Virus record (IMG/VR): IMGVR_UViG_3300023082_000004
Span: 1 to 42,196 of that record
Direction: 5' to 3' (one strand)
Length of the DNA stretch: 42,196 nt
Source: a virus
Part shown: positions 9,968 through 29,062 of the stretch, piece after piece
Numbering within the stretch: position 1 is the stretch's first letter
How the letters are laid out: every line of letters starts with the position of its first letter
The notes under the pieces: generated by a model
Told to the model about the DNA's origin: nothing
The model's input: the letters and a program-made list of their open reading frames with translations, nothing else
The model's database searches: none
Made by a program: the position numbers and the translations under genes

Positions 9968-10468
9968 ATGAAGAAAATAGCAACAATTTTATTATGCCTT
10001 TTATCATTATCGGCATATTCTCAAAAGAAAAGCAATAAATCACAATGGATTTCTTACGGAGAGCAATGGACTTATAAAAATGATAAAGTAGATACTATTA
10101 TTAAAACATTAGTAAATACATCTGCAGGTAAAAAATATTTCAACAAACAAAACAAAGACTATATCAAAGGCATTCAATTTACTTGGTATGATGGTAAAGA
10201 ATTAAAAACATCGGTTTGCGATTCTCTATTTACCTATTCGTCTTGGGAATGCTCAAAGACTTACCAAAAGAAAGCTTTCTATTTAAATGGCGTTAAGGTT
10301 AAAGAAACAAAGCCTTATTGGGATAATTCTGGAGTTTGCATATCTAATGATAATTTGGTTATTTCTTATGGGTTTACTGGAGACAAAACCAAGCCCTACT
10401 ATTACGGAAGCAGAAAAGAACCAATAAAGGTTGTTTCAATTCAAATGAAAACTATAATTAAAAACTAA
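9968..10468 (+). CDS. Exported protein with Sec signal peptide (moron-like), 166 aa
   Basis: The frame is open from 9941, but the ATG at 9968 gives a clean signal peptide, MKKIATILLCLLSLSAYSQ, with a lysine start, hydrophobic core and probable cleavage near SAYS/Q. The mature part is polar with three cysteines (SVCDS, WECSK, GVCIS) and many aromatics, and should end up in the periplasm or at the cell surface. It sits inside the structural operon but has its own terminator and promoter box, the typical build of a phage moron. It may alter the host envelope or exclude other phages; no homologous function is recognised. Confidence 0.7.
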   Translation: MKKIATILLCLLSLSAYSQKKSNKSQWISYGEQWTYKNDKVDTIIKTLVNTSAGKKYFNKQNKDYIKGIQFTWYDGKELKTSVCDSLFTYSSWECSKTYQKKAFYLNGVKVKETKPYWDNSGVCISNDNLVISYGFTGDKTKPYYYGSRKEPIKVVSIQMKTIIKN

Positions 10469-11790: not shown

Positions 11791-12410
11791 TAAGACTTCG
11801 AAAAACATTTACCTCGTGTTCTGATATCCCACTATACAACTTCATTAAAGTAGTTGTTACGAATGATAAGAATTGGCTGTATTCAGAACCTAAAATGCCG
11901 TGGTTAAAATCAGCAGATTTAGAATCAATCTGGGAAAACATCTTTAACGAATACTCCGAGCTTTCAAATGATAAGCATGGAAAGGCGGTTTTTAGCATTA
12001 CGAAAACACTAACCGTACTTAACGGTAAGATTTGGGTTATTGAGCAATGTTTATCGCTTCTACAGTCAGTTAGTAGCGTTGGCGATGTAAAAGACTATGC
12101 TGAAACAATTCAAACGCTTAAATCGTATGGTTTCAATTATGAATGGCTAAATATCACACTCGATGATGATATTAAAAAAACCAGATCATCCATGAAGCGA
12201 ATAGTTTTGGAGCGAAACGATGCGCAAAAAAGCTACGAAAATTTACAATCTGATAATTCAAAACAAGCAACCGAAGCTGACTTTGATATTTTAATTGGAC
12301 AGTTATCTAAATTTCAAGGTTATTACATAGATAAAAAAGTAATAACCACAGCAGAATATATTTCGTATATTGCTGCGTTTAATTTAGCTAACAGTCCTAA
12401 AAATGCCTAA
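11787..12410 (+). CDS. Putative tail assembly chaperone
   Basis: A 207-residue, largely helical protein directly upstream of the tape measure, where siphophages encode chaperones that coat the tape measure before tube assembly. The segment DILIGQLSKFQGYYIDKK near residue 170 resembles proteins of this position in related phages. I see no slippery sequence for the frameshift used by lambda-type chaperones. It overlaps the tape-measure gene by 8 bases. Confidence 0.45.
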   Translation: MIRLRKTFTSCSDIPLYNFIKVVVTNDKNWLYSEPKMPWLKSADLESIWENIFNEYSELSNDKHGKAVFSITKTLTVLNGKIWVIEQCLSLLQSVSSVGDVKDYAETIQTLKSYGFNYEWLNITLDDDIKKTRSSMKRIVLERNDAQKSYENLQSDNSKQATEADFDILIGQLSKFQGYYIDKKVITTAEYISYIAAFNLANSPKNA

Positions 12411-15400
12411 TGAAGAATCTATAAACGAGATTGTCTCCCCAAAGGCCATAAGTCAAGTAGAAGTTGATTTAGTTAAAGCCTTAGAAAAATCTAATTTAGC
12501 ATTACAGGATAACATTAAATCTGTAGCCGCCCTAAACGATGCTATTGCAAATTCAAAGGGGTTTGCTTCTTATAATAAGAATACGGCTGACGCGGCAAAA
12601 GCTCAGGAACAATTAGCGAAAATAACAGCTTCAAGGCAATTAGCAGAAGAAAGGTTATCGGCGTTTCAAGCGGCTCAATCACAAAAAAGACAAAAGGAGC
12701 AAGATGCTCAAATAGCTAAGTCAAAAGAAATCTCTTTAGAGGAGGCTAAAGTTTCTCAAGCTATAGCAAAAAGCAACGGAGAAATAAGAAATCAAGCAAA
12801 AGAAATAAACGCAGCAAAAGGAAGTTTAGATCAAAGAGCGGCGGCACTCACAAGGCTTCAAAACGCATACGCAAAGCTTAGTGAACAAGAAAGAAACTCT
12901 CCTTTTGGTCAGAGATTATCCAAAACTTTACCTCTTTTAAATAACCAAGTCCTAACTTTAGAGAAATCTTTAGGAAAAGCTGGCAGAAACGTAGGAAACT
13001 ACACTAATGCAATAGGCAATGCAAACGGAGTTTCTCAGGAATTTACAAGAATAATACAAGATGCACCATTTGGTTTAATTGGCATAGGTAATAACATTAC
13101 TCAATTAACTGAAAATTTTAAAAATTATTCAAAAGCGGTAAAAGACGCTGCTGCTGCCGAAGGAAAATCAGTTTCTAATTCTTCAATATTAAAAGGTGCA
13201 TTAAGCAATTTACTAAGCCCTATAAATCTTTTAAGCTTAGGTATATCTTTAATTGTTTCTGGGTTTACTGCGTATCAACTTTGGGCGCAAAGATCGGCTA
13301 AAGCTACTAAGGATCTGAATAAAGAGGGTGCAGAATACATAGATACCTTAAGCGGCATAGATAAAATCGCCCTGAAAGGACAGCAAAACGCAGTGAAAGA
13401 AACCGAATCATTAAAGTTGCTTTATGAGGCTACGCAAAATTTAAAAATACCAACAGATGAGCGAATTAGAGCAGCGAAAGCTTTGCAAGAACAGTATCCT
13501 AAGACGTTCTCTAACTTTACTCAAGAACAAATATTACTAGGTCAAGCAAGCTCTGGTTACAAGCAACTTGCAAGTGATATTTTACTAGTAGCTAGAGCAG
13601 CGGCGGGAGTTGAAATAATAACAGAAAACACAAAAAAAATAGTAGAACAACAACTAAAATACAACAAAGCTAAAATTCAAGAAAAAAAATTAATACAAGA
13701 AATAGCCTCAGAAGTGGCAAAAGAAAAATCAAGAAGAGATGCTGATGATGAAAAACTTAGATTAACATCTACATTAAATGGCGGAAATGCATCTCAAAAT
13801 CCTGACGATTTAATCGCTTTGGAAAAAAGAAAACAATTGCTTGATGTTCAAAACACAATAAACTCTGCTCAAAAAACAAAAACAACACTTACTAACGAAA
13901 ATCTTAAGGTAGAAAAACTTATAACCGATGAGATAACCGAAAGGCAGTCTGTTACCTCTTTGCTAGGAGTTCAGGAAAGCCAAGAAAAAAAGACAAAAGG
14001 GCTTGCAGAAGCTTTACGTGTTTTAGCTGAAAATCTTAAAAAGGTCGACGATAACACTACTCTGACATTTAAGGAATCTACTGTAAAAAAAATATCAGCT
14101 TATACGGGAGCTTTAGGTTCTATTAGCAAAATAAAAGGCTCTGATGCAGCTAATGAAATAAGAAAAATTAATCAAGAGCTGCTTAAACTAAAAGCCTTAC
14201 TACCTAAGGAAACAAAAAAAACAGCATCAAAAAAAGACAAAATAGAGAACCCTATCGAGTCCGCCATAAAAGATTCAATCGAGATAATCAATAATGATAA
14301 GGCAAGTTTTCAAGAGCGTTTAGGTGCTTTAGAAAGCTTTTTGTCTGCTTCAAATCAGTTGTATAAAAACAAAGAAGGCGAACGCTCAAAAGCTTTAATT
14401 GATTATAAAGCGTATGAGAAAAAAATAAACGACGATGCAAACAAAGCTATTTTAGATCAGTTCACAAAAGATGAACAGGAACGAATAAGAGTTTTACAAC
14501 AGTCGAATAGTAATGAACTGGAAATAAACGAGCAGAAACGTTCTGCTGTTGCTTTGGCTTTAGATTCTCAGTACGCTGATGGAATCATAAGCAAAGAGGA
14601 ATACGATGCTAAAATCTATCAATTGGATAAAAAAGCATCAATGGATGCAATTAAACTTCAATTAGATACTTTAGATGCTATTTTAGAGATTCAAAGACAG
14701 GATTTATTTAATGGCATTGGTTCTGAAGATGAATATACTGCCAATTTAAAAAAGCAAGCCGAATTAAGAATTAAGTATTCAAAAATAGAAGTTGATGCTA
14801 AGATTAAAGCACGTGAAGATTCAGCTAAGGCCGCTGAAAAAGAACTTGATGCAATAAAGCAATTAACTGCTAAATCATTGGAATTTGGAAAGGCTTTAAT
14901 TGATGGAATTTATACACGCAGATTAAATGCCCTAGCTGATGAATCTGCAGCTTTAAATAAAAAGAAACAACAGGATATTGAAAACGTTAACGATTCTGTT
15001 TTAACCGAGCAACAAAAAGCCGATCAGATTGCTATTATAAACGCTCGCGCTGATGCTCAACAAACTGTAATCGATGAAAAGATTAGGCAACAAAAAATAA
15101 AACAGGCTAAAGCAGATAAAGCGCAAGCAATAGCTCAGATCATTATTCAAACTGCTTTAGCACAAGTTAAAGTTATTGGCCAGGCTGGTTTATTGGGATT
15201 TGTGTTTAGCCCCTTAATTACGGCTTTGGGTGCTTTATCATTGGCTACAGCTTTAGCTACTCCAATACCTCAATTTGAGAAAGGCGGAACCGTTAAGCGT
15301 GATGGGCAAATTATAACAGGAGAAGCAGGAACGGAATTAAGAATAAATCCAGATGGTTCACAAGAATTAACAGCCTCACAAGCAAATTTAAGTTATGCAA

Positions 15401-15654
15401 AAGCTGGCACCAAAATTATTCCTAATCATGAATTAGTCAGAATGATGGCAAAGCCTGATCAAATACAATATGTTGGTGGTCAGTCGGTGGATATGTCAAA
15501 ACTCATAGAAAGCAACGATAAGCTAGGTAAAAAGTTAACTAAAGCCTTTGGCGATCAATCCGTACATAGTACAATTGTCACTAAAAACGGATGGTTTGCA
15601 AATAATACTAAAATGGCAAGAGTAAAAAACCATATTAATCGTAATTTTAGCTAA
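12403..15654 (+). CDS. Tape measure protein
   Basis: At 1083 residues this is the longest gene. It sets tail length and is injected with the DNA. Residues about 20-190 and 560-840 are long alanine/lysine/glutamate/glutamine coiled coils. Two hydrophobic stretches lie near residues 265-295 (LLSPINLLSLGISLIVSG) and 915-955 (LLGFVFSPLITALGALSLA). The C-terminal part with GGTVKRDGQIITGEAGTEL is typical. By the usual 0.15 nm per residue the tail would be about 160 nm long, which is an inference. Confidence 0.9.
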   Translation: MPNEESINEIVSPKAISQVEVDLVKALEKSNLALQDNIKSVAALNDAIANSKGFASYNKNTADAAKAQEQLAKITASRQLAEERLSAFQAAQSQKRQKEQDAQIAKSKEISLEEAKVSQAIAKSNGEIRNQAKEINAAKGSLDQRAAALTRLQNAYAKLSEQERNSPFGQRLSKTLPLLNNQVLTLEKSLGKAGRNVGNYTNAIGNANGVSQEFTRIIQDAPFGLIGIGNNITQLTENFKNYSKAVKDAAAAEGKSVSNSSILKGALSNLLSPINLLSLGISLIVSGFTAYQLWAQRSAKATKDLNKEGAEYIDTLSGIDKIALKGQQNAVKETESLKLLYEATQNLKIPTDERIRAAKALQEQYPKTFSNFTQEQILLGQASSGYKQLASDILLVARAAAGVEIITENTKKIVEQQLKYNKAKIQEKKLIQEIASEVAKEKSRRDADDEKLRLTSTLNGGNASQNPDDLIALEKRKQLLDVQNTINSAQKTKTTLTNENLKVEKLITDEITERQSVTSLLGVQESQEKKTKGLAEALRVLAENLKKVDDNTTLTFKESTVKKISAYTGALGSISKIKGSDAANEIRKINQELLKLKALLPKETKKTASKKDKIENPIESAIKDSIEIINNDKASFQERLGALESFLSASNQLYKNKEGERSKALIDYKAYEKKINDDANKAILDQFTKDEQERIRVLQQSNSNELEINEQKRSAVALALDSQYADGIISKEEYDAKIYQLDKKASMDAIKLQLDTLDAILEIQRQDLFNGIGSEDEYTANLKKQAELRIKYSKIEVDAKIKAREDSAKAAEKELDAIKQLTAKSLEFGKALIDGIYTRRLNALADESAALNKKKQQDIENVNDSVLTEQQKADQIAIINARADAQQTVIDEKIRQQKIKQAKADKAQAIAQIIIQTALAQVKVIGQAGLLGFVFSPLITALGALSLATALATPIPQFEKGGTVKRDGQIITGEAGTELRINPDGSQELTASQANLSYAKAGTKIIPNHELVRMMAKPDQIQYVGGQSVDMSKLIESNDKLGKKLTKAFGDQSVHSTIVTKNGWFANNTKMARVKNHINRNFS

Positions 15655-17678
15655 TGTTATTACTACCTCAAAACGATTTTGAATATTATTTAACCATTGA
15701 TGGATTAGAGACAAAGCTTGTTTTTGCTCCCGAGGGATGGGATACTGATACAATTGGTAGCTTTAAGCGTGACGTTTTTTATCGTGGCTTAATACGTACT
15801 TTATCGCTTCCAATGAATTTCGTTTTAGATGGATACAATATTTGTAAATACGCTTTCGATAAATATGCTTATGAAGCTGAAGTAATTTTTGAAGTTAAGA
15901 AATTAAAACGCCAAACATTTACATACGAAACTATTTTTAAATCTGAATTGGATTTTAGCCAATACGATGATGATGGCACCCGAATAGCATTAATATTAAT
16001 GGAGGGCGGTGTAAGCAAGGAAATAAAAGCTAAGGAAGATACAAAATTTGAATATGCGTTAACGGGTAGCGATGTTGTAAACATGATTTTACCTGGCGTT
16101 GCTTTTAACGAAAAAGGAGATAGTATTTTTGTTAATGAGGGCGAATCTGATAGGTTTATGCCAGCTATTGATTTGGTGGTTAATGATACTAATTCTGGAT
16201 TTGTAACACTTCAAAATGTTGCACAGGAAGAAAACATAACCGATGAATCAATTTTTACATCATCTGGCAATTGGTTTGCGAAAGGAAACAGGATTGCTGG
16301 CGTTCCGATAAATATTAAAGGAGTCATCAAAGTTGATGCTTATAGGCCGCCATTAACCGACCACGGTAACGACTTCGCTATTTTGCTAAAGGATAGTACG
16401 GGGGCAACTGTATCAACTATTTTTCAATCTCCATCTTTAAATCAAGGTCAACATTATTTATACAGCATTCCTTTTGATATAAATTTAACTTTAGCCTTAG
16501 ATAGAAAACTTTTTATTTTCATCCGAACCGATGTTATTCCATCTGATTTAAAAGTTACAGTAACCGATGGAGACTTGGTTGTTTCTTATGCTCAGGTTTC
16601 AGATCCGTCAAACTGTAAAGGTATTCGAGTAGAGGATTTATATAAAAGAATTATAAAAAGAATTTACCCCCAAATTTCGGCTCAATCTGATTTATTAAAA
16701 ATGAATTGGAACGGCTTAATAATTACTTCGGGAAATGGAATACGCGAGAAGTCAGATGCAGTTATTCAAATTACTTTAAAAGAGTTTTTTAATGCTGTTT
16801 CTTCGTGGAACGATGCGGCCTTTGGTGTTTTGAATAACATTGCAAGGTTAGAGCTTGCTACATTCTTTTATAGAAATACGCCAATTGCTAACGTAGGGAA
16901 TGTTAATAAATGTAATTTTACCGTAGCTACTGATTTTATCTTTAACAAGCTTGAAATTGGCTACAATGACGGGAATACGGATGATACAGACGGTCAATTT
17001 GAGTTTAACTCGAAACAGGAATGGCAAATGCCAGTTACAAGGATTCAAAATCCAGAATCAAAGATAAGCCCAATTCGAGCGGACCAATACGGCATAGAAA
17101 AAATACGTGTTAATTACATCAAAAAAACAGACGATACAAGTTCTGATAATTCGGTTTTTGCGGTAAATTGTACTTTTGACGGGGTTAACTGGATTCCAAT
17201 TTTAGGCAGTTCTTATCAATCGGTAACAGGGATGAGTTCCGCACAGGCTGGACAAACTTCTTATAACTTAGATTTAAGCCCTAAACAATCATTACTGAGA
17301 CAGGCTCCTTATTTACGTTCGATGCTTTATAAATTAGATAGCAGATACATTGAATTTGCTTCTGCAGAGAAGAACAAAGAGCTTGTCACGATATCAACAG
17401 GAGGTATGATTTCAAACCCTGTTAGAGTAGCTGAAAAAGAAAGCGTTTTGGTTTCTAATTTAGGTGGAAATTATTTCAGACCTATTATCGCAACGATATC
17501 ATGCCAATTAAACAGAAATATGATGCAGATGGTAGACAATACGCCATTTGGGTTTATTGAATTTAATTTTAACGGACAAAATTATAAAGGATATATTGAA
17601 GATGCAGGAATTGATTTAGCAAAGAATACAGAAAGGGAATTTACTTTGTTATTAACACCAGAAGTTTGGGTGCCTTAA
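15654..17678 (+). CDS. Tail-tip / distal tail protein
   Basis: A 674-residue protein, beta-rich, starting at the A of the tape-measure stop (TAATG). It occupies the distal tail position and resembles large minor tail proteins of Bacteroidota siphophages (N-terminal FEYYLTIDGLETKLVFAPEGWD...). It probably forms the baseplate or adsorption hub. No enzyme motif was seen. Confidence 0.6.
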   Translation: MLLLPQNDFEYYLTIDGLETKLVFAPEGWDTDTIGSFKRDVFYRGLIRTLSLPMNFVLDGYNICKYAFDKYAYEAEVIFEVKKLKRQTFTYETIFKSELDFSQYDDDGTRIALILMEGGVSKEIKAKEDTKFEYALTGSDVVNMILPGVAFNEKGDSIFVNEGESDRFMPAIDLVVNDTNSGFVTLQNVAQEENITDESIFTSSGNWFAKGNRIAGVPINIKGVIKVDAYRPPLTDHGNDFAILLKDSTGATVSTIFQSPSLNQGQHYLYSIPFDINLTLALDRKLFIFIRTDVIPSDLKVTVTDGDLVVSYAQVSDPSNCKGIRVEDLYKRIIKRIYPQISAQSDLLKMNWNGLIITSGNGIREKSDAVIQITLKEFFNAVSSWNDAAFGVLNNIARLELATFFYRNTPIANVGNVNKCNFTVATDFIFNKLEIGYNDGNTDDTDGQFEFNSKQEWQMPVTRIQNPESKISPIRADQYGIEKIRVNYIKKTDDTSSDNSVFAVNCTFDGVNWIPILGSSYQSVTGMSSAQAGQTSYNLDLSPKQSLLRQAPYLRSMLYKLDSRYIEFASAEKNKELVTISTGGMISNPVRVAEKESVLVSNLGGNYFRPIIATISCQLNRNMMQMVDNTPFGFIEFNFNGQNYKGYIEDAGIDLAKNTEREFTLLLTPEVWVP

Positions 17679-17701
17679 TTTTTAAAACACAACAATTTAA
17701 C

Positions 17702-17709
17702 TATATTTG
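17702..17709 (+). promoter_or_regulatory. Candidate -7 box inside the tail operon
   Basis: TATATTTG lies 5 bases before the ATG at 17715, the same spacing as before the small terminase. No convincing -33 TTTG is present at 19-21 bases. Confidence 0.4.
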
Positions 17710-17714
17710 AAGAA

Positions 17715-19346
17715 ATGATAGGAACGCCAGCAATATTAAATACGCTAAGATTTATTGACACATCAAATCTTAACAGCGGTTTTGATGGCAACTACTATCG
17801 GAATCAACTTTTAGATTATCAAACAGGCAAATGTTACGCTCAAAAGCTTAAAAAAAGCGACACTTTAACGCTTCAATTAATAGTTGATAGCTCAACTTCT
17901 CCTAGTGTACCGCCAGATTTAGAGTTTTACAATGAAAGTAATTTGCTTTATTTATCTATTCCGTGGCAATTAAACCCTTTAGTTATTGCAGGAAATCCAG
18001 ATTTAAAGATTTATGAGATAATTTATTCTTTAGCTGGATTTGTTTCGGGCGCATACGTGGCGCAGTTTGATGTTTTTACAACTGAAACATTAAGCATCGA
18101 AGATCAGCAGGATTACACAACCTTATTAAAGTACAAAAACAAAGAAAATAACTACGATGTTGTTTTTGATACGGGTATTGAATTTCAATTTCGTGTTGAA
18201 TCATGGGTGGAATACGAAACTACAGAAAACGAAAGGGCTGTTTATGCAGATCAAGTTCATAACTTAACTCAATTATCATCTGTAGCGTTTAGAAAGCATA
18301 ACTTTTATGTAGGCTTTGAAGTAGGCGTACCTAATTGGATATTAGATAAGGTAGTACATATTCAGCAATGCGATCAGGTTTCGTATGATGGTATTTATTA
18401 CCAGGTGCCAGCTGAAGAACAATTTGAGTACGAAAAAAACCCAGATAATAACTATATTGGTGGAAAAATTGTAATTCATCCATCTGAAAACAATTTTACA
18501 AAATATACAACACAGCCAGGTCAATCTGGAACAACATTTACGCCCGTGCAAAAGACAAACCAATATTTAGGTGTAATAGCTCCGTTAACTGTTAATGGCC
18601 TATTTAAGCTCGCGTCTGTTTTAGAGTATGTAGCAATCTTAAAAACGGGTGCTGATTATGTTTTAAATATTGGCATTACGCCAAACGGTAACGAGATAGG
18701 TCAATTCATCGTAGACAGTCAGGAAAATTCTTTTGAGGTTCAATATGTATTCAGAAACGCAACGCCTGTTTATTTTAGCGGAACAGGAATAAATGCTGAT
18801 GAACTGTATTTAGTTTGGAAGCAATTAAATGAAATACCCGTGCCTATTGGCGGAGGAAATGTACCGCCTCCCGTTGGCATTGGGGCGAAAATGCTTTATG
18901 AAGAAGTTAATCCAGGAGATTTTGCTTTAGATTTCGACCAAACTACAGGCTTAGGCGATTCAAATAGAGATTGGAGAGGATGGGCAGTTTCGGGAACCAA
19001 TGGGCGTGTTGATATGAGTAATGCTTATCCTATAGGATGGGATAGAGTAGATTCAAATGATATCGGAACTAGTGTAGGCGCAAACGCAAAGCTTATACCA
19101 AAAGCAGCATTACCAGCCGAGGGCATAGCAACTTTATCCGTTACCGTGAATTCAAGTCCTGGCGATATTCCAGATGCAAATAATCCAGTAGCAAGAGCAG
19201 GAAGTAATAACGGTGCTTTTGCTTACGAACTAAGAAAGGGTACAGGAGCCGCTACTTTGGGTAAATCTGCAAACTTAGGGGATGGCGCAAACTTTGATGT
19301 AAGACCAAATAGTATTGTTTCTGTTTGGGTTGTTAAAATAGCTTAA
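17715..19346 (+). CDS. Minor tail protein with collar-like C-terminal domain
   Basis: A 543-residue protein. Residues 1 to about 380 form a beta-rich tail domain. After a glycine/proline linker (PVPIGGGNVPPPVGIG, about 375-390) the last 150 residues (MLYEEVNPGDFALDFDQTTG, NRDWRGWAVSGTNGRV, AYPIGWDRVD) look like a tail-collar or receptor-binding type domain in which a glycine/asparagine-rich fold repeats short strands. It probably sits at the tail tip and may contact the host. Confidence 0.6.
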   Translation: MIGTPAILNTLRFIDTSNLNSGFDGNYYRNQLLDYQTGKCYAQKLKKSDTLTLQLIVDSSTSPSVPPDLEFYNESNLLYLSIPWQLNPLVIAGNPDLKIYEIIYSLAGFVSGAYVAQFDVFTTETLSIEDQQDYTTLLKYKNKENNYDVVFDTGIEFQFRVESWVEYETTENERAVYADQVHNLTQLSSVAFRKHNFYVGFEVGVPNWILDKVVHIQQCDQVSYDGIYYQVPAEEQFEYEKNPDNNYIGGKIVIHPSENNFTKYTTQPGQSGTTFTPVQKTNQYLGVIAPLTVNGLFKLASVLEYVAILKTGADYVLNIGITPNGNEIGQFIVDSQENSFEVQYVFRNATPVYFSGTGINADELYLVWKQLNEIPVPIGGGNVPPPVGIGAKMLYEEVNPGDFALDFDQTTGLGDSNRDWRGWAVSGTNGRVDMSNAYPIGWDRVDSNDIGTSVGANAKLIPKAALPAEGIATLSVTVNSSPGDIPDANNPVARAGSNNGAFAYELRKGTGAATLGKSANLGDGANFDVRPNSIVSVWVVKIA

Positions 19347-19348
19347 TC

Positions 19349-19741
19349 ATGCCAAATAGAGACAAACGACTTAGAGGATTAATTGTTGAATGGATAAGCG
19401 GAGTTTTAACTAATTTCATATCTGTTAATAGCCTTTTAAGATATAAAAACCCCAACAATTTTACTGACCCTCGAGATATTCCAGATTTGGGAGAAGTAAT
19501 GTATCAAATCGGACTAGCTGGCGGTTTGACTAAAAAAATCATAAACAAGTTAGGTTCTGATGTTGATGGTTCGGGAAATTTAGATTTGAGTTTAGAAACA
19601 GGAATACCAGCAAATGCAAATTATACAGTTTACATAAATGGATATGCTGGATTACAGGCTATAAGTTACGATGAAAACGGTATGATAATGGGCGGATTTG
19701 GAGTTGCGCCAACTGATACGATAAAAATAATATTCATATAA
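19349..19741 (+). CDS. Minor tail-region hypothetical protein, 130 aa
   Basis: Starts 2 bases after the collar-like gene and ends overlapping the fibre gene by 1 base. The second half, with TVYINGYAGLQAISYDENG, may be a small beta domain. It is likely a tail accessory protein by position only. Confidence 0.55.
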   Translation: MPNRDKRLRGLIVEWISGVLTNFISVNSLLRYKNPNNFTDPRDIPDLGEVMYQIGLAGGLTKKIINKLGSDVDGSGNLDLSLETGIPANANYTVYINGYAGLQAISYDENGMIMGGFGVAPTDTIKIIFI

Positions 19742-22665
19742 TGAAAAGATTAATAACCATATTTTTACTCGCAATAAGCGGCTTTGCTTCGGCTCAATAC
19801 CAACTTAACTATGCCGATATACGAATTGGAAATTCAAATACAGGTAAAATAGTTTTAAGGGGTTCTAATGTTCAGTTCCCTTTTTTGGCTTTAGGCTCGA
19901 CTACTGATAGTGTAGTTACTATTGATAATGGAGTTTTTAAAAAGGTTCCTCGTTCTCAATTTAGCGGAGGCGGTAGCGGTGCGGTAAGTAGCGTATTTGG
20001 TCGTACAGGCGATGTAGTTGCCCTATCAGCCGATTACAATGCATTTTACCCCTTACTTGCATCAACTTACAACAATCCAACATGGATAAACACTTTAGCT
20101 TATTCAAAAATTACGGGCGTTCCTGCATTTATTACAACTGAAACAGATCCTATATGGACTGGTGTATCTGCAAATTATAGAACAAAAACACAGAACGATG
20201 CTTTATACTATCCTTTAACAGGCAATCCTAGTGGTTTCTTAACAAGCTATACCGAGACAGACCCTTTATTCGACACTAAATTTGCAGGAAAAACAACCAC
20301 AGGTTTAGCAGAGGGTACTAATTTATACTTCACTCAAGGTAGGGTAAGCGCTAATACAGATGTAACAGCTAATACAGCAGCAAGACATAGTGCAGTTACA
20401 ATAGGAACGGCTAATGGACTTTCTTTAGTTGGTCAAGCATTATCATTAAGTTTATCGTCAAGCGGCGTTACAGGAGCGTTAAGCGGATCAGACTGGAATA
20501 CTTTTAACTCAAAACAAAATCAATTAGTTTTAACAACATTAGGAACAAGCGGAACAGCGAGCTTAATTGGGAATACTTTAAACATTCCTAATTATGCAAC
20601 AGGAGGTGGCGCAGGAAGTTCAGCTTTAAGGGTTCCGGTTACTTTGGCATCGGGAGCAACTGTTATACCAATTACTTGGGCTACATATTCGGCAACATAC
20701 GGCGTAAGCCCTACAGATTTGAGCTTAATTGAACTATCATCGACAGGCGACAGACAAGTATTTACCAATTGGTATTCAGATGATAATGGTGTTACTTATA
20801 AGTTTGATGTAGCACCCGAAACGGGAAGTAGAAACTTTGTAGTAGTTATTTCAGGAGGCAGTACTGTTACATCAGGCAACGTGACGAGCGTTACTAGTGC
20901 TAATGGGGATATAAGTGTTACTAATTCAACTACAACGCCTGTATTGACATTAAATAGTGGAACTGGTGCAAATCAGATTGTCAAAAGAAATGGTAGTGGT
21001 TCAATTGCGGATTTAGCGCCTTATCTATTAAGCTCAAATGCTGCTTCTACTTACTATCCCTTAACAAATCCAAATGGCTATACGTCTAATTCAGGAACAG
21101 TAACAAATGTTACTAGTGCAAACGCGAACATATCTGTTGCTACAGGAGGCTCAACACCTGTTTTGACATTAAATACAACTATAACCTCGAATACCACAGG
21201 GAATGCAGCCACAGCTTCTGCCGTTCCTTGGGCGGGAGTGACGGGCAAACCCACCGCATTAAGTCAGTTTACTAACGACTTGCCTATTCCAACTTTACAA
21301 CAAATAACTACATCTGGTAACATAAGTCAAAACAGTATTTTAGTACAAAAAACAAACACTACCATACCAACTTTGGGTTCTGGACAAAACAGTTTATACC
21401 TTATAGATTCAGGCGGCAATTACGGTACTCAGTTAGGTGTTCTGGGAACTGGATGGGGTTTTTTACAACAAGCAAGAACAGACGGAACCGCTACAGCATA
21501 CCCTTATTTAATAAATCCTAAAGGTGGAAATCTATTGATTAATACCGAAACCGACAATGGGGCTTCGCTTCAAGTGAGCGGTAAGGCAACGGTGTCAATT
21601 GCGCCAACAAACCCTACTGATGTTGTAAGAAAAACAGAATTAGATACAAAACAAAATCAAATTAATGGGACTGGATTTGTTAAAGCATCAGGGACTACAG
21701 TAAGCTATGACAACACGAGTTATTACCCTGCATCAAACCCAAATGGATACACATCAAATTCAGGCACTGTTACATCTGTTACAAGTTCGAATGCAAATAT
21801 AAGCGTAGCGACAGGAACAACAACTCCAATTTTAACGCTAAATAGCACAATTACATCAAATACTTCGGGTAATGCTGCGAGTGCTAGTTCTGTTCCTTGG
21901 ACAGGGGTAACATCAAGACCAACAGCGTTAAGTCAATTTACAAATGATTTGCCGATACCTAATCTTCAACAAGTTACCACCGCAGGAAATGTTATTACAA
22001 ACAACATGGTTATAGGGTCTGCAGATAACGTATTACCCTCTTTAGGGGCGGGCAATTATAAGTTGTTTTTAGGTAATAATGGTAATGCTTACGGTACTCA
22101 ATTTGGGGTTATTGGTAATGGAATGGGATATTTACAGCAAGCAAGGATAGATGGCACAGCGACAGCGTATTCCTTTATGTTAAATCCCCTGGGAGGTAAT
22201 GTGTTAATAGGCTCTACAACCGATAACGGAGCGTACAAACTCCAAGTAACGGGCGGTATAAGCGCTACGGGAAATGTAGGTATTAACGGCGATATTTCGG
22301 CCTCAAATTTAGCTAGTGGACCCTACACCCCGTCTTTAACGGCCGCAGCAAATAATACTAGCCCTAGTATATCGGGCGCGAAATATAGCAGGGTAGGTAA
22401 TATAGTGACGGTATCAGGAAATGTAACTATAAACGTGACGGCCGCAAGTACTAATACTGTCGTTGGGGTTGCATTGCCTATTCCATCCAATTTCACGCTG
22501 AATGACGATGTTACGGGAACACTTACAGCTTTAAATTCATACGGACAGCAACAATTAGTAACAATAGCAAATTCAACTTCGGACAGAATAGACTTATCTT
22601 TTTTTAGCGGCTCAACTACGGGGGCTAATACATTCTACTTCATTTGTCAATACATAATCAAATAA
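19741..22665 (+). CDS. Large tail fibre with N-terminal signal peptide, 974 aa
   Basis: The protein opens with a textbook Sec signal peptide, MKRLITIFLLAISGFASAQ, cleavage expected after FASA. Then come low-complexity T/S/N/G-rich repeats typical of trimeric fibres, including SSVFGRTGDVVALSADYNAF (about residues 84-103). A unit of about 180 residues is present twice (439-616 and 662-840). The last 110 residues (YTPSLTAAANNTSPSISGA...) match a C-terminal fibre domain I recall from other Bacteroidota phages. A signal peptide on a virion protein is unexpected. It is coupled to the preceding gene by TAATG. Confidence 0.75.
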   Translation: MKRLITIFLLAISGFASAQYQLNYADIRIGNSNTGKIVLRGSNVQFPFLALGSTTDSVVTIDNGVFKKVPRSQFSGGGSGAVSSVFGRTGDVVALSADYNAFYPLLASTYNNPTWINTLAYSKITGVPAFITTETDPIWTGVSANYRTKTQNDALYYPLTGNPSGFLTSYTETDPLFDTKFAGKTTTGLAEGTNLYFTQGRVSANTDVTANTAARHSAVTIGTANGLSLVGQALSLSLSSSGVTGALSGSDWNTFNSKQNQLVLTTLGTSGTASLIGNTLNIPNYATGGGAGSSALRVPVTLASGATVIPITWATYSATYGVSPTDLSLIELSSTGDRQVFTNWYSDDNGVTYKFDVAPETGSRNFVVVISGGSTVTSGNVTSVTSANGDISVTNSTTTPVLTLNSGTGANQIVKRNGSGSIADLAPYLLSSNAASTYYPLTNPNGYTSNSGTVTNVTSANANISVATGGSTPVLTLNTTITSNTTGNAATASAVPWAGVTGKPTALSQFTNDLPIPTLQQITTSGNISQNSILVQKTNTTIPTLGSGQNSLYLIDSGGNYGTQLGVLGTGWGFLQQARTDGTATAYPYLINPKGGNLLINTETDNGASLQVSGKATVSIAPTNPTDVVRKTELDTKQNQINGTGFVKASGTTVSYDNTSYYPASNPNGYTSNSGTVTSVTSSNANISVATGTTTPILTLNSTITSNTSGNAASASSVPWTGVTSRPTALSQFTNDLPIPNLQQVTTAGNVITNNMVIGSADNVLPSLGAGNYKLFLGNNGNAYGTQFGVIGNGMGYLQQARIDGTATAYSFMLNPLGGNVLIGSTTDNGAYKLQVTGGISATGNVGINGDISASNLASGPYTPSLTAAANNTSPSISGAKYSRVGNIVTVSGNVTINVTAASTNTVVGVALPIPSNFTLNDDVTGTLTALNSYGQQQLVTIANSTSDRIDLSFFSGSTTGANTFYFICQYIIK
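21055..21588 (+). repeat. Internal fibre repeat, copy 1
   Basis: Encodes fibre residues about 439-616. It starts at NPNGYTSNSGTVT and contains ALSQFTNDLPIP, LQQARTDGTATAY, NPKGGNLLI and LQVSGK. It is similar in protein, and partly in DNA, to 21724-22260; many third positions differ, so the duplication is not recent. Confidence 0.8.
21724..22260 (+). repeat. Internal fibre repeat, copy 2
   Basis: Encodes fibre residues about 662-840 with the same order of motifs as copy 1: NPNGYTSNSGTVTSVTS, ALSQFTNDLPIP, LQQARIDGTATAY, NPLGGNVLI, LQVTGG. A shorter, partial match to the first part also occurs near 20878-20960. Confidence 0.8.
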
Positions 22666-22667
22666 TC

Positions 22668-23963
22668 ATGAAAAAAATACTCATAATACTTTCTTTTTTT
22701 GTTTCTTATTCCGCATACGCTCAATACGTACCTAAAGCAGGAAACAAATTAAATGTTAAGCCTAACGGAATATTAGTTCCAACTTCATCAGCTGATGATA
22801 CGCCTATAGCAAGGCTAGAGGTTTTTGCTTCGGGCGTTTCTACCATAAAACCAACAGCTTTACCCATCGCATCCGCTTCTCTTTTAGGAGCTTTTAGAGT
22901 TGGCACAGGACTTTCGATAGATGGAAGTGGCATATTAAGTACGGTTGGCGGTTCTGCTCCTGACACGACTATTTATCGTACAGTAGCTAATAGTAGAAGT
23001 TTAGCGCAAACACAAACTGCTTTAAACGCAAAGCAAAACACTTTAGTAAGCGGAACAAATATTAAAACAATAAACGGGGCTTCTGTTTTGGGTAGTGGCG
23101 ATTTAATTGTAACGGGCTCAAGCCAAACTTTAGACCAAGTTTTAACAACTGGAAATACCTCAACTCAGAACGCTACAGTTGGAGGATTATCAGCATCGAA
23201 TAGAATAGCAGTTGGCGGGGCTTTAGATGTTAATTACGTTTCAAAGTTCATTTCAACCACATCGGATAATTACAACGCCTTTACATCAACATCAGGAACA
23301 GGAGAATATGGAATTTACGACAATGCTTTATACTTTCAAGCCTTGACGCTAAGTAACGGCATTCGTTTTTATGGCAATAATACAGCTCCTAATGCTGGGC
23401 TTTCAGTGAACGCATCTAATAATGTAGTTATTCAAAGTTCGCTAAACTTATCTCCTTTAACAGCTTCTACACTACTCAAACTAGACGCTTCTAAAAATGT
23501 AGTTAATGCAGTTTCCAACACCGACTTTTTACCTGTTGCATCGCCAACAATGACGGGAACGCCAGTAGCGCCAACTCCAGGAAGCAACATAAACACAACG
23601 CAAATTCCAACAACAGCATGGACCAACACATATTACGCAACTAAAGCAAGTCCGACTTTTACAGGCACGCCAGCAGCACCGACGGCAACTGCTAAAACGA
23701 GTACCACGCAAATAGCAACAACTGCTTTTGTAGGTAAACAATTTACGGCAACAGGAAGCGGAACAGGCGCAGCAACAACAATCAGCTTTGCTCATGGAGT
23801 TTCTGGCGTTACATCCGTAAATAGTGTGATCGTAACACCAAACAATGCCGCGGCTGCAGGATTGATTTATGTAACTCTCGATGCTACAAACGTAAATGTT
23901 GTATATTCCGTTGCTCCTGCTTCGGGTACAAATAATTTAGCTTATTCAGTTTCAATTAAATAG
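22668..23963 (+). CDS. Tail fibre-like protein with signal peptide, 431 aa
   Basis: The frame is open from 22644, but the ATG at 22668, 2 bases after the previous stop, gives the signal peptide MKKILIILSFFVSYSAYAQ. The body has fibre motifs: ALNAKQNTLVSGTNIKTING, then two copies of a TGTP-AP-T-TTQI-TTA unit (TMTGTPVAPTPGS and TFTGTPAAPTATA). The last 60 residues (ISFAHGVSGVTSVNSVIVTP...) resemble the end of the next protein and may be a shared receptor-binding or trimerising tip. Confidence 0.7.
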   Translation: MKKILIILSFFVSYSAYAQYVPKAGNKLNVKPNGILVPTSSADDTPIARLEVFASGVSTIKPTALPIASASLLGAFRVGTGLSIDGSGILSTVGGSAPDTTIYRTVANSRSLAQTQTALNAKQNTLVSGTNIKTINGASVLGSGDLIVTGSSQTLDQVLTTGNTSTQNATVGGLSASNRIAVGGALDVNYVSKFISTTSDNYNAFTSTSGTGEYGIYDNALYFQALTLSNGIRFYGNNTAPNAGLSVNASNNVVIQSSLNLSPLTASTLLKLDASKNVVNAVSNTDFLPVASPTMTGTPVAPTPGSNINTTQIPTTAWTNTYYATKASPTFTGTPAAPTATAKTSTTQIATTAFVGKQFTATGSGTGAATTISFAHGVSGVTSVNSVIVTPNNAAAAGLIYVTLDATNVNVVYSVAPASGTNNLAYSVSIK

Positions 23964-23965
23964 CC

Positions 23966-24478
23966 ATGAAAAAATTATTAATCTTATTACTATTTGTAAG
24001 TGCTTTTGCTAAAGCGCAATTAACGCCAGTTGCATCTAAATCTTTTGGCACTATATCAGATTTGAGGTCACAAAGCGGAAGTTCAAATACTCAGGTATTA
24101 TTGCAGGGTTTGAATGCCATAAATGACGGCAACGGCGGCATATATATGTGGGATGATTTAAGCACAGCTACAGATGATGGGCTTTCCGTTATCAAAGTAG
24201 CGAGCGTAACAACTGGAAGATGGCTTAAAATGCCAAATTCAAACACAATTAAAGGTAATGTAACTTTTAGCGCAGCAGTTCTGCAAACAGCTTATGTAGT
24301 TAATCACGGGCTTTCTTTTGCTCCAAATCAGATTTACATACAGGCGAGGTCGTCAAATGCTGCGGTTCCATCATGGGTAAGCAACATTACTTCAACGTCT
24401 TTTACGGTAAATTTTGCCAGCGTTCCTATTTTAGGAACCAATAACATTACTATTGATTACTTAATTATTAAGTTCTAA
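23966..24478 (+). CDS. Short fibre-tip-like protein with signal peptide, 170 aa
   Basis: Begins with the signal peptide MKKLLILLLFVSAFAKAQ. The C-terminal 70 residues (VVNHGLSFAPNQIYIQARSS..., ending ITIDYLIIKF) match in layout the end of the 431-residue fibre protein. It could be a tip protein that binds the host or caps the fibre. It overlaps the next start by 1 base. Confidence 0.65.
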   Translation: MKKLLILLLFVSAFAKAQLTPVASKSFGTISDLRSQSGSSNTQVLLQGLNAINDGNGGIYMWDDLSTATDDGLSVIKVASVTTGRWLKMPNSNTIKGNVTFSAAVLQTAYVVNHGLSFAPNQIYIQARSSNAAVPSWVSNITSTSFTVNFASVPILGTNNITIDYLIIKF

Positions 24479-25713
24479 TGAAAAAACTAATATTATTACC
24501 AGAAACAATACCTCCTATAAGTTCTACGGTAAGCAAAACAACTCATGTAATAACTTATTCTGATGGTGTTGTAATTACCTTAGTTGGCAGTAATACAGTT
24601 GCTATTCGTAAAGCTGCTTATTTAAAAGCTAAAGGCGATATTAAGCCTCCTATTTCGGATTTTAAAACGATTACTTACATCGAGTATGCGAACCTTTCGA
24701 ATGTATCGGATAAAAAATATAAAGTTATCCCAGGCATTTACAAGCAGGGCGCGTACCACGAAAATTTAACAAACGTCGATTTCGATTTAACGGGTGTTGT
24801 AATACAGGATTTAAACAATTCGGCTTTAACAATCGCGGGTAAAAGCATCAACGTTTCATACCGTAATGCCTCATTTAAAAACGTAAATGCTTACCAAATT
24901 AATTGTTATAATTCAGACAAGGTAGTTTACAATGGTTCGGCAGGAACTTACATTGATCGTTTAAAAATTGATGGATTTACTTTTGATGGTGGCGGTTCGC
25001 CTTTCCATTCAGACGGAAATGTAAGATCGAAGGGTGTGCATGACGGGGTTTTAAAAGGTTTTGTTTTCTCGAATAACGTAGTTAAGAACAACCTCGGCTC
25101 TAAGTTCATGGTTTACTTAGGTAATGGTTTTGACTTCGATATTTTCGGGAACACGTTTGAAAACATTAACAAGCAAAATAACGAAGATAATGGGATGTTT
25201 TACCTTAAAGCAACGGGTAAGCTCCACAATAACAAAGCATCAAATTATCAGGGGTATTTAGCTCGTATTTGGCCCCATAGTATTGGAGAGAGAAGAACGG
25301 TTGAAGTATATAACAACATCGGTTTAGATGGCGATAAATACGGGTTGATTGAACTGCAATTTTCGCCTGACTTTATTGAAAGAGGTGCAGAACCAGCTGA
25401 TGCAAAAGTGTATAATAACACCGCCTTAAACCTAAATAAAACAACTGATTGGGCTGGGGAATTACTAACTTTATATAATACTTACGGTAAAGTAGAATAT
25501 TACAACAACTTAGGAGCGACTTTAGTAGGCCAAGAGGGCGGAAGGCCAACAAGAGATTACAAAGTAATATCTGGAAATAAAATGGTTTTCGGTCAATACG
25601 ATGATAAGAAAACTACGTTAATAATATCTGGTCAGAACTTATATTTCGACAAAGTATCTGATGCAGTAAATGATAATTTAACAAGTAAACATAACGGAAT
25701 AGGAGCGAATTAA
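24478..25713 (+). CDS. Putative tailspike / parallel beta-helix protein, 411 aa
   Basis: From about residue 100 onward the sequence shows repeated short strands with N and G turns (FDLTGVVIQDLNNSALTIAG, FVFSNNVVKNNLGSKFMVYL, FDIFGNTFENINKQNNEDNG), the look of a right-handed parallel beta-helix as in tailspikes and pectate-lyase-like enzymes. It might bind or cleave a host polysaccharide; the catalytic residues cannot be assigned. Its start MKKLILLPETIPP lacks the hydrophobic core of the three preceding genes, so no signal peptide is expected. Confidence 0.65.
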   Translation: MKKLILLPETIPPISSTVSKTTHVITYSDGVVITLVGSNTVAIRKAAYLKAKGDIKPPISDFKTITYIEYANLSNVSDKKYKVIPGIYKQGAYHENLTNVDFDLTGVVIQDLNNSALTIAGKSINVSYRNASFKNVNAYQINCYNSDKVVYNGSAGTYIDRLKIDGFTFDGGGSPFHSDGNVRSKGVHDGVLKGFVFSNNVVKNNLGSKFMVYLGNGFDFDIFGNTFENINKQNNEDNGMFYLKATGKLHNNKASNYQGYLARIWPHSIGERRTVEVYNNIGLDGDKYGLIELQFSPDFIERGAEPADAKVYNNTALNLNKTTDWAGELLTLYNTYGKVEYYNNLGATLVGQEGGRPTRDYKVISGNKMVFGQYDDKKTTLIISGQNLYFDKVSDAVNDNLTSKHNGIGAN

Positions 25714-25714
25714 A

Positions 25715-25897
25715 ATGAAAAAAGACAGAGAAAAAGTAAACAGCAAAAAAGGCTTAGGCTCTAAAGGGATTTCAGAAAACAAACAGGAACAAGTTCCGCC
25801 AACAGGAACACCTTGCGACAAATCTAATCCAGACGATCCGCATCATGGCGAAGCTGGCGATTACGACGAAAAGTGCAATTGGATTCCAAGTGTATAA
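25715..25897 (+). CDS. Small hydrophilic protein, 60 aa
   Basis: Rich in K, E, D, P and H, with two cysteines (TPCDKSNPDDPHHGE and EKCNW) that with the histidines could bind a metal; this is speculation. It starts 1 base after the tailspike stop and is followed by a terminator-like hairpin at 25914. Confidence 0.6.
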   Translation: MKKDREKVNSKKGLGSKGISENKQEQVPPTGTPCDKSNPDDPHHGEAGDYDEKCNWIPSV

Positions 25898-26258
25898 CAG
25901 AAGTTTTCAAATCGCCTCGTTTATCGGGGCTTTTTGCTTTGTCTATTCCTGGTTTGTTTTAAGCGGTATAATGGGCTGGTTTGTATCGAGATTTCCAAGA
26001 GAGGCTTTTATTTCGGGTCTTATGGGTTCGTATTCCATATATCTAATTTATTTCGCTTATACCATCACCAAAAATAGAAAGGAACGATTATTGTTTAAGA
26101 TTGGTGTAGTAAATTTTATAGGCACAATAATAATGCGTACTTTAACGCCAATTGCATTAATGCCTTATCCCGTTGTGTATCTAATTGCGCTCAACAGTTT
26201 TACCCTCGGATATGTATTCTATGCTTTATTTAAATCTGATAATAACGGAGATTACTAA
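25845..26258 (+). CDS. Small multi-span membrane protein (start uncertain)
   Basis: Hydrophobic protein of up to 137 residues with three or four membrane segments (for example FCFVYSWFVLSGIMGWF and SIYLIYFAYTI). The first ATG, at 25845, lies inside the previous gene. A GTG at 25890 or an ATG at 25971 are alternatives, and the hairpin at 25914-25939 falls inside the longer versions. The longest frame is given. It heads a run of membrane proteins placed before the lysis genes; the function is unknown. Confidence 0.5.
   Translation: MAKLAITTKSAIGFQVYNRSFQIASFIGAFCFVYSWFVLSGIMGWFVSRFPREAFISGLMGSYSIYLIYFAYTITKNRKERLLFKIGVVNFIGTIIMRTLTPIALMPYPVVYLIALNSFTLGYVFYALFKSDNNGDY
25914..25939 (+). terminator. 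Terminator-like hairpin after the tail operon
   Basis: GCCTCG (25914-25919) pairs with CGGGGC (25925-25930), including one G-T pair, followed by TTTTTGCTTT. It is nearly identical to the hairpin at 35710. It may end the tail operon, but it overlaps the possible 5' end of a membrane-protein gene. Confidence 0.5.
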
Positions 26259-26259
26259 A

Positions 26260-26664
26260 ATGACATTTAGCTGGGTAAAGATTGTGATAAACTACATAAT
26301 ACTAAACATTTTATTCGATGCTCTTTCAATGGGGCATGGTGTTTTATATAACTTAGGTGTTGCAATCTCGGTTGTATTCGGGCTTTGCGTAAGGCTTATT
26401 ATGGAATACAGTAATGGAAGCTTAACTAAAAAGAAAGCTATTGTTCATTCGATATTGTCTATTACAATTTCTTACTTTTCATATTTCATTTATGAATCTA
26501 AATTTTCATGGGTTCCAATTCAGATATATTTAGGTATTGTTAGCTTTATGGCATTCTATTTGGTAAAGGTAGGCGAGAAGGTATTTATAATCGGATTACC
26601 TACTTATCTTAATTTACTTTGGGATACATTATTAGCAAAACGAGATAAGGGAGGTGTAAAATAA
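26260..26664 (+). CDS. Multi-span membrane protein, holin-like, 134 aa
   Basis: The frame opens at 26185, but the ATG at 26260, 1 base after the preceding stop and downstream of GGAG, is preferred. It has four probable membrane spans (INYIILNILFDAL, NLGVAISVVFGLCVRLIM, ILSITISYFSYFIYE, IYLGIVSFMAFYLV). Size and location before the endolysin allow a holin or related lysis role, but a better holin candidate lies after the endolysin. Confidence 0.6.
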   Translation: MTFSWVKIVINYIILNILFDALSMGHGVLYNLGVAISVVFGLCVRLIMEYSNGSLTKKKAIVHSILSITISYFSYFIYESKFSWVPIQIYLGIVSFMAFYLVKVGEKVFIIGLPTYLNLLWDTLLAKRDKGGVK

Positions 26665-27020
26665 TGACTTTACTAGCGAACATTTTATGTATAATAGTAA
26701 TGATAGGCATCTGGCTTTATGCATTTTTGTTTTTGTGTAAAATGCCTTATTCAATAAGTTATTGCCTGAGGCGTTGGATTTTCCAGAAAGACGATAAATA
26801 CATTAAATGGCTTTGGAAAAATAAATACTATTTAAAATATACTTTTTTTATAATAATACTTTTGCCAATCATAGCTTTGATGTTAGGTAGTTTCATGCAC
26901 AATAAGATATTTGATAGGCCAGCTTTATTAATCCAATTGTCACCGTTCTTATGGCTTGCTATTGCTATGCTTGTGGATGATAGAATAGGAATGTTTGAAA
27001 GATGGTTTAGCAGAAATTAG
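26664..27020 (+). CDS. Membrane protein, 118 aa
   Basis: Three probable membrane segments: ILCIIVMIGIWLYAFLFL at the start, FFIIILLPIIALMLGSF in the middle and PFLWLAIAMLVD near the end, with a basic loop between the first two. An unusually good Shine-Dalgarno, GGGAGG, lies upstream. Its start overlaps the previous stop by one base. No family is recognised. Confidence 0.6.
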   Translation: MTLLANILCIIVMIGIWLYAFLFLCKMPYSISYCLRRWIFQKDDKYIKWLWKNKYYLKYTFFIIILLPIIALMLGSFMHNKIFDRPALLIQLSPFLWLAIAMLVDDRIGMFERWFSRN

Positions 27021-27063
27021 GATTGTATCAAAATCGTTACATACAACCTATTATATTTCTTCA

Positions 27064-27071
27064 TACATTTG
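27064..27071 (+). promoter_or_regulatory. Candidate -7 box before a 39-residue membrane peptide
   Basis: TACATTTG fits TAnnTTTG and is 20 bases before the ATG at 27092. No clear -33 element was seen. Confidence 0.3.
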
Positions 27072-27091
27072 ATTCAACAAACGAAAAGAAA

Positions 27092-27211
27092 ATGAAAACA
27101 TTAAATTATAATCAGAAAGTGGCAACTGCACTAATAGTATTTTTAGCATCTGTAATAGCGTTATTAGTTTACGCTCAGTCGCAAGGAACATTAAGCAATT
27201 TGTCACATTAA
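27092..27211 (+). CDS. Single-span membrane peptide, 39 aa
   Basis: The frame is open from 27023, but the ATG at 27092 (MKTLNYNQKVATALIVFLAS) lies well placed behind a promoter-like box. Residues about 11-28 span the membrane; the C-terminal tail is short and polar. Function unknown. Confidence 0.5.
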   Translation: MKTLNYNQKVATALIVFLASVIALLVYAQSQGTLSNLSH

Positions 27212-28600: not shown

Positions 28601-29062
28601 ATGAACATTTCGACAAACGGCATTAACTTCATTAAGAATGAAGAAAAGTTTATGAGCAAACCGTATTTAGATTCGGTTGGAGTTGCTACCATTGGATATG
28701 GATCAACTGTTTACGAAAACGGTGTAGCTGTTAAAATGACAGATAAACCAATTGCCGAAGCAAGAGCAACCGAGCTGCTTAATCATAAACTACAATCTCG
28801 TTACGTTCCTGCCGTTAAATCTGGATTAAAAGTAAATGTTACGCAAAATCAATTTGATGCGCTTACATCGTTCATTTACAATGTAGGTCCAGGCGGAACT
28901 TCATCAACTTTATTCAAAAAAATAAATGCTGGCATAAAAGACAAGGCAACGATTGAGTATTGGTTTGGTGTTTGGAACAAGGGAACTATTAAAGGTAAAA
29001 AGGTTGAATTAAAAGGCTTAACTTTGCGTAGGGCGAGAGAGGCTAAATTATTCTTATCATAA
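28601..29062 (+). CDS. Endolysin, T4-type lysozyme (GH24)
   Basis: A 153-residue muramidase that cuts peptidoglycan at lysis. The GH24 pattern E-x8-D-x5-T is present as E15, D24 and T30, followed by IGYGS, NQFDALTSFIYNVG and the C-terminal GLTLRRAREAKLF. Length is normal for phage lysozymes. No signal peptide is seen, so a holin should be needed. It has its own promoter and is followed by a coupled small gene and a holin-like gene. Confidence 0.9.
   Translation: MNISTNGINFIKNEEKFMSKPYLDSVGVATIGYGSTVYENGVAVKMTDKPIAEARATELLNHKLQSRYVPAVKSGLKVNVTQNQFDALTSFIYNVGPGGTSSTLFKKINAGIKDKATIEYWFGVWNKGTIKGKKVELKGLTLRRAREAKLFLS

Follow-up and report, generated by a model that had tools for sequence, protein, structure and literature searches.

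Sec-type leaders with a +1 glutamine on tail-fibre-type proteins in a clade of probable Bacteroidota phages

The usual view is that tailed phages complete their assembly inside the cytoplasm. The IMG/VR virus record IMGVR_UViG_3300023082_000004, a metagenomic stretch of 42,196 bp with a GC content of 34% that is here called the window, carries three consecutive genes, fibA, fibB and fibC, whose tail-fibre-type products each begin with a predicted Sec leader and a signal peptidase I (SPI) cleavage site. That these leaders are real, selected and provided with a cleavage site is strongly supported. Phages of this kind appear to export fibre proteins from the cytoplasm, where their tails are assembled. 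We propose, with a probability of about 0.42, that a clade of Bacteroidota phages builds its virions in two compartments. Head and tail would be made in the cytoplasm and receptor-binding fibres in the periplasm, following Sec export, SPI cleavage and pyroglutamate capping, and the two would be joined at lysis. Sec leaders on tail-fibre genes were not described in any paper that a literature search, outside which most subscription journals lay, brought up.

Leaders of fibA, fibB and fibC

The 974-aa product of fibA (19741..22665) starts with MKRLITIFLLAISGFASA (residues 1-18, 19741-19794) followed by Q, which gives a predicted mature N-terminus at Q19. fibB (22668..23963, 431 aa) starts with MKKILIILSFFVSYSAYA, again residues 1-18 followed by Q (predicted mature Q19). 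Its ATG is at 22668, although the mechanical open reading frame (ORF) begins upstream at TTG 22644. The leader of fibC (23966..24478, 170 aa) is MKKLLILLLFVSAFAKA, residues 1-17, and the Q behind it is the predicted mature residue Q18. These and all other window features named below are on the + strand. An earlier note on this DNA had reported Sec signal peptides on fibre-type proteins at these three starts, and the ORFs were recovered with exactly its coordinates and translations.

A rule-based SPI test was used, which looks for lysine or arginine in the n-region, an uncharged hydrophobic h-core, A-x-A at -3 and -1, and then Q. All three proteins pass with scores of 6.6-7.3, and the mean Kyte-Doolittle value of the h-core is 3.1-3.8. 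Residues 2-40 were shuffled in 3 x 20,000 trials and the score of fibA, fibB or fibC was never reached (0/20,000 each). In other phage contigs 8/1197 ORFs of at least 150 aa (~0.7%) have a Q-type leader, and 5/8 of these are fibre-slot genes of L078 and L097-L099 (L-numbers label the compared loci, which are phages, prophages and bacterial genomes). The shuffles and the background ORF rate rule out a chance origin. Because the test rewards Q at +1 and has false negatives (6H gp05, Pan5 gp18), the survey counts given below are approximate; gene position served as a second guide to the leader-bearing fibres of the tail clade. Glutamine at +1 is the 'Q-rule' feature of Bacteroidetes and marks SPI substrates of Bacteroidota, at an average of 71% over 334 species (PMC5837995).

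Neighbouring genes overlap as TAATG at 19741 and 24478 and lie 2 nt apart at 22668 and 23966, and the first 290 codons of fibA and fibB contain no second in-frame ATG; these arrangements make the three starts secure. No in-frame ATG was found among the listed alternative starts of fibA (codons 49-475) or in fibB before codon 295, so a leaderless form would not be made from one. Start-codon misassignment is ruled out on these grounds. A lipobox with cysteine at +1, as for signal peptidase II, was not seen in any of the three, and searches of the fibres against Pfam and NCBIfam gave no match to a type IX C-terminal domain (Por_Secre_tail, CHU_C). Neither fibA nor fibB contains a 19-residue window resembling a transmembrane (TM) segment; fibC has one that passes a loose TM threshold.

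The fibre identity of the proteins comes from family matches and position. fibB matches a PHROG tail fibre family (best 2.8e-11) and fibC a PHROG tail spike family (1.2e-7). fibA resembles annotated minor tail and fibre proteins only locally. Searching Pfam, NCBIfam and PDB with the fibre sequences gave no useful match. Tail-tip genes flank the three genes on one side and the lysis region on the other.

At the protein level the leaders hardly vary across the window, L004, L005, L087 and L088. Among these five phages the proportion of synonymous differences (pS) in the fibB leader is 0.41-0.49 against a nonsynonymous proportion (pN) of 0.045, and in the fibC leader pS reaches 0.35 with a pN of 0. 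By this measure the leader codons are under purifying selection. The N-terminal ~150 aa of fibA are 82-98% identical across five phages. Beyond that point identity drops to 6-38% in L087 and L088, and further on to 6-36% in L004 and L005. This pattern looks like that of an anchored fibre with swapped tips, as in virion fibres that exchange their receptor-binding ends.

Leaders among relatives and homologues

To find phages with the same tail module, p15654 (15654..17678), a virion structural (tail) protein (phrog_15220, 2.7e-41, and alignments), was used as the clade marker. Identity to p15654 in alignments is 60% in L004, 56% in L003, 51% in L005, 48% in L171, 43% in L173 and 42% in L172. By tblastn it is 27% in the L174/L176/L177 group and 25% in Pseudanabaena phage Pan5, and a profile (3.7e-16) picked up L271, which is a prophage of a Bacteroidia genome. 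One profile search of genome contigs with the tail protein and a blastn search of phages for distant relatives of the fibre region gave no match. Each of L003, L004, L005, L171, L172, L173, L174/L176/L177, Pan5 and L271 has 1-4 proteins with a leader in the stretch that separates the tail-tip genes from the lysis region, and L088 also has leader-bearing fibres in this slot. The leaders of relatives differ in their letters, for example MKIKLLIMLMLVGFGASA, MRRILLLFTLLSACLSTQA and MKKLLFLTIILFSAFAAFA, each followed by Q, and every leader-bearing fibre found in the slot has glutamine at +1.

No leader was seen in the available part of L168, a 6.4-kb fragment. Phages and prophages that share the tail protein at greater distance (Arctus_1, JQ, L178, L179 and several Bacteroidia prophages) gave no leader-bearing fibre, and the cultured phages 11b, 6H, RAP44, B124-14 and FCL-2 have no leader on fibre or large tail genes. 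In a survey of related phages such as the earlier note proposed, leaders are kept in same-slot fibres of the tail clade and are absent from the fibres of seven named Bacteroidota phages. Phages with other tail modules can also have leader fibres (L078, L097-L099), and a prophage of Aquimarina sp. AU58 has two, adjoining its endopeptidase and a lipoprotein gene. Among fibres sharing the 'GTNIKTING' repeat, leaders were found in 7/80 viral ORFs and 4/21 ORFs of Bacteroidota genomes, a set that mixes many unrelated phages and in which 2/4 of the leader-bearing genome ORFs resemble host secreted proteins. Because of these counts, leaders are, as far as this survey reaches, not general for Bacteroidota phage fibres.

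The gene that follows fibC (24478..25713, 411 aa, beta-helix-like by eye) has no leader in the window, as the earlier note had stated; it is leaderless in L004 too, and both read MKKLILLPETIPPISS. Yet its homologues in L005 (91% identical to that of the window) and L006 begin with MKKLILFIALLIPIGLMA, followed by QTIPPISS in L005 and by Q in L006. An in-frame deletion of ~30 nt is common to the window and L004. Since L005 and L006 keep the leader, its absence from this fourth gene is, on the comparison of these genes, a secondary loss. The mature part is under constraint, with a pS of 0.47 and a pN of 0.04 between the window and L005. L006 also has a fibC homologue (69% identity over 150 aa) in which MG replaces the leader, preceded by a leaderless protein whose 225 C-terminal residues are common with fibB at 52% identity. 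Because the C-terminal 225 aa of fibB and fibC itself occur leaderless among the L006 fibre genes, both would be fibre modules. These with/without pairs, the fourth gene in the window and L004 against L005 and fibC against its L006 homologue, show the leader to be a detachable unit, sitting at a domain boundary, that has been gained or lost between homologous fibres.

Several leaders and fibre repeats were seen outside this slot or clade. Pan5 (L166, ON968456) has three Q-type leaders, on gp07 (annotated cement protein), gp18 and gp19 (loci 14415-18459 and 2318). It is reported as a cyanophage, but it may really infect a Bacteroidota bacterium that accompanied the culture. Upstream of its portal gene, Tenacibaculum phage JQ (L165) encodes a protein of 152 aa (454-912) with the Q-type leader MKKLLLLALLLWGINTNA, then Q. 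The chromosome of Spiroplasma phoeniceum (CP110830.1) has at least 12 places with the fibre repeat around GTNIKTIN (L183, L185, L186, L188, L196, L216-L220, L223, L234). Apparently chromosomal fibre-repeat proteins with hydrophobic or leader-like N-termini occur in Paceibacterota, Parcubacteria, Nomurabacteria, Bacteroidetes and Flammeovirgaceae (L202, L208, L210, L215, L240, L244); these may be proteins that the hosts secrete and that have domains in common with phage fibres.

Gene order and neighbouring features of the window

The gene order of the window is ordinary for a tailed phage. It runs from small and large terminase through portal, head protease, major head protein and tail protein to the tape measure gene (12403..15654; phrog_18891, 1.1e-13). 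p15654, p17715, p19349, the fibres and small membrane proteins follow, and downstream of these are a PAPS-reductase-type gene, an endolysin and recombination and replication genes. Of the 50 window proteins that were scanned, none matched an integrase or repressor family. As to the host, homologues of the window tail protein occur in Leeuwenhoekiella phages, Tenacibaculum phages and the L271 prophage.

p17715 (17715..19346, 543 aa, leaderless) is kept throughout the clade at 34-51% identity, matches phrog_26568 (function unknown) and is a candidate tail-tip protein. By eye its C-terminus may resemble a gp12-type collar. p19349 (19349..19741, 130 aa), also leaderless, precedes the fibres. Its slot holds stubs of 130-255 aa in other members and a leaderless, fibre-sized protein of 1061 aa in L173 (13675-16860), after which a separate leader-bearing fibre comes. 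Three small membrane proteins with TM-like segments (25845..27020), a possible holin region, lie between the fibres and the leaderless endolysin (28601..29062; phrog_7, 1.5e-44). Directly after them a 62-aa ORF (27023-27211) with a TM-like segment at residues 33-51 ends in LVYAQSQGTLSNLSH and is possibly a very short leader-bearing gene.

Besides the fibres, the rule-based test gave a single comparable forward-strand match in the window, at 9968 (score 5.45). This fourth Q-rule leader, MKKIATILLCLLSLSAYS followed by Q, begins a 166-aa protein (9968-10468) encoded between head and tail genes. Weak similarity (E 0.006, 30% over 93 aa) links it to gp05 of Flavobacterium phage 6H, a DUF4468 protein with a leader of its own whose gene adjoins the 6H tape measure gene.

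Assembly in two compartments and other explanations

In the proposed pathway the fibA, fibB and fibC products would be tail-fibre-type proteins that belong to a Bacteroidota phage and leave the cytoplasm through the Sec system of the host. SPI would cut the leader to expose an N-terminal glutamine, which host glutaminyl cyclase would convert to pyroglutamate; Q-rule processing is reported to raise the stability of extracytoplasmic proteins (PMC10653852). Mature fibres would collect in the periplasm, apart from the cytoplasmic tails. Because neither a type IX domain nor a lipobox was found, they would stay there, encountering new virions only once the cell lyses. The conserved N-terminal part (~150 residues in fibA) would then dock onto the tail tip, where p19349 and p17715 are candidate partners, and the docked proteins would act as variable receptor-binding fibres. 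Export and cleavage of the three proteins are very probable. The transport itself, periplasmic holding and docking at lysis are steps that we infer, and the whole chain from export and cleavage through holding to docking on the virion has a little less than an even chance.

The strongest competitor, a serious possibility that nonetheless falls short of even odds, is that these are exported non-virion proteins, fibre-derived binders or enzymes acting in the periplasm or after lysis. They might mask receptors and so keep progeny from being wasted on debris, degrade envelope or capsule glycans, or exclude other phages. T5 Llp and PblA/PblB of Streptococcus mitis phage SM1 are loose analogues; the SM1 proteins are tail-type and end up outside the cytoplasm, like the fibres proposed here, but are released via lysis genes, lack Sec leaders and come from a Gram-positive host. 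Another loose analogue is lambda Lom, a leader-bearing exported protein encoded between the tail spike and side fibre genes (PMC12309495), although Lom is not a fibre but a beta-barrel of the outer membrane, made in lysogens. Enzymatic-looking members, namely the leader-bearing Pan5 gp19, annotated as heparin lyase I, and an L172 leader fibre with a sub-threshold GDSL lipase match, fit a non-virion role nearly as well as docking, as do the leaderless fibre candidates of relatives (the 1061-aa L173 protein and Pan5 gp17, annotated with a short-tail-fibre domain); the beta-helix-like fourth gene points the same way. For these reasons docking at lysis is only slightly favoured. It is the first choice because the conserved N-terminus and swapped C-terminus of fibA suggest a fixed docking partner, and because it is the leader-bearing genes that hold the divergent tips seen here, whereas most of p17715 is conserved. 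The lack of any visible outer-membrane secretion or lipoprotein signal also speaks against the non-virion role.

The N-terminus could instead be a hydrophobic patch that serves the virion, or an uncleaved hydrophobic anchor by which the fibres are held at the inner membrane. Cleavage is predicted rather than observed directly, and the TM-like window of fibC would suit an anchor, but the h-regions are short, fibA and fibB have no such window, and perfect A-x-A|Q sites place glutamine at the same point in leaders of differing letters. This makes an anchor most improbable. Scarcely more credible is that the leaders are functionally neutral passengers acquired by recombination with host-secreted fibre-like adhesins. 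Leaders do come and go among homologues, and Bacteroidota genomes encode fibre-like leader proteins that resemble host secreted ones (L240, L244); against this stand the purifying selection on leader codons and the retention of the leader in divergent relatives of the tail clade. Among the readings of the earlier note, real Sec leaders on fibre-type proteins stood and export with joining at lysis is slightly favoured, while the uncleaved anchor is disfavoured and display on the living host is unsupported, neither a type IX domain nor another family having been found. The Q-rule, the secondary loss in the fourth gene, the leaderless homologous fibres and the seven named phages with leaderless fibres had been overlooked there.

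Several points weigh against assembly in two compartments. The fourth gene still looks intact without its leader in the window and L004, and in L006 the fourth gene has a leader and the homologues of fibB and fibC do not; export would therefore not be obligatory for every fibre of the set. The leader calls come from the rule-based test, the Q-rule and conservation, and a place of the three proteins in the virion is likewise a prediction. AlphaFold models of p17715 and fibC (pLDDT 41 and 48) gave no usable structure. No likeness can be recognised between the fibre N-termini of L003, L172 and L173 even though their tail proteins are 42-56% identical to p15654, which weakens the case for docking on p15654. 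Attachment after dilution at lysis may also be inefficient.

Phages (Nixviridae) of the Bacteroidota host Porphyromonas gingivalis also have genes whose Sec/SPI leaders expose glutamine; their five Q-rule proteins are of unknown function (PMC10367356), whereas here the carriers are tail-fibre- or tail-spike-type genes in the tail cluster. Phages 11b, 6H, FCL-2, RAP44, B124-14, Arctus_1 and JQ resemble the window in their tail and lysis neighbourhood, and Arctus_1 shares fibre repeats with fibA, but no Sec leader was seen on those of their fibre and large tail genes that were checked. Pan5 has the homologous tail protein and leader-bearing gp18 and gp19 in the same slot. It differs in that gp18 has a long n-region and fails the rule-based test, gp19 is annotated as a lyase and the reported host is a cyanobacterium; mass spectrometry of Pan5 virions has been published (PMC9837993). 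The phage target proteins of diversity-generating retroelements that have been surveyed were reported without signal peptides (PMC6199706).

The Q-rule leader on fibre genes offers a sequence-level handle for finding such phages, and the natural pairs with and without it, the fourth gene and fibC in L006, can serve to probe its effect. If fibres are routinely exported first, assembly would have an extracytoplasmic last step, or fibre-like binders would act at the envelope in ways that have not been described.

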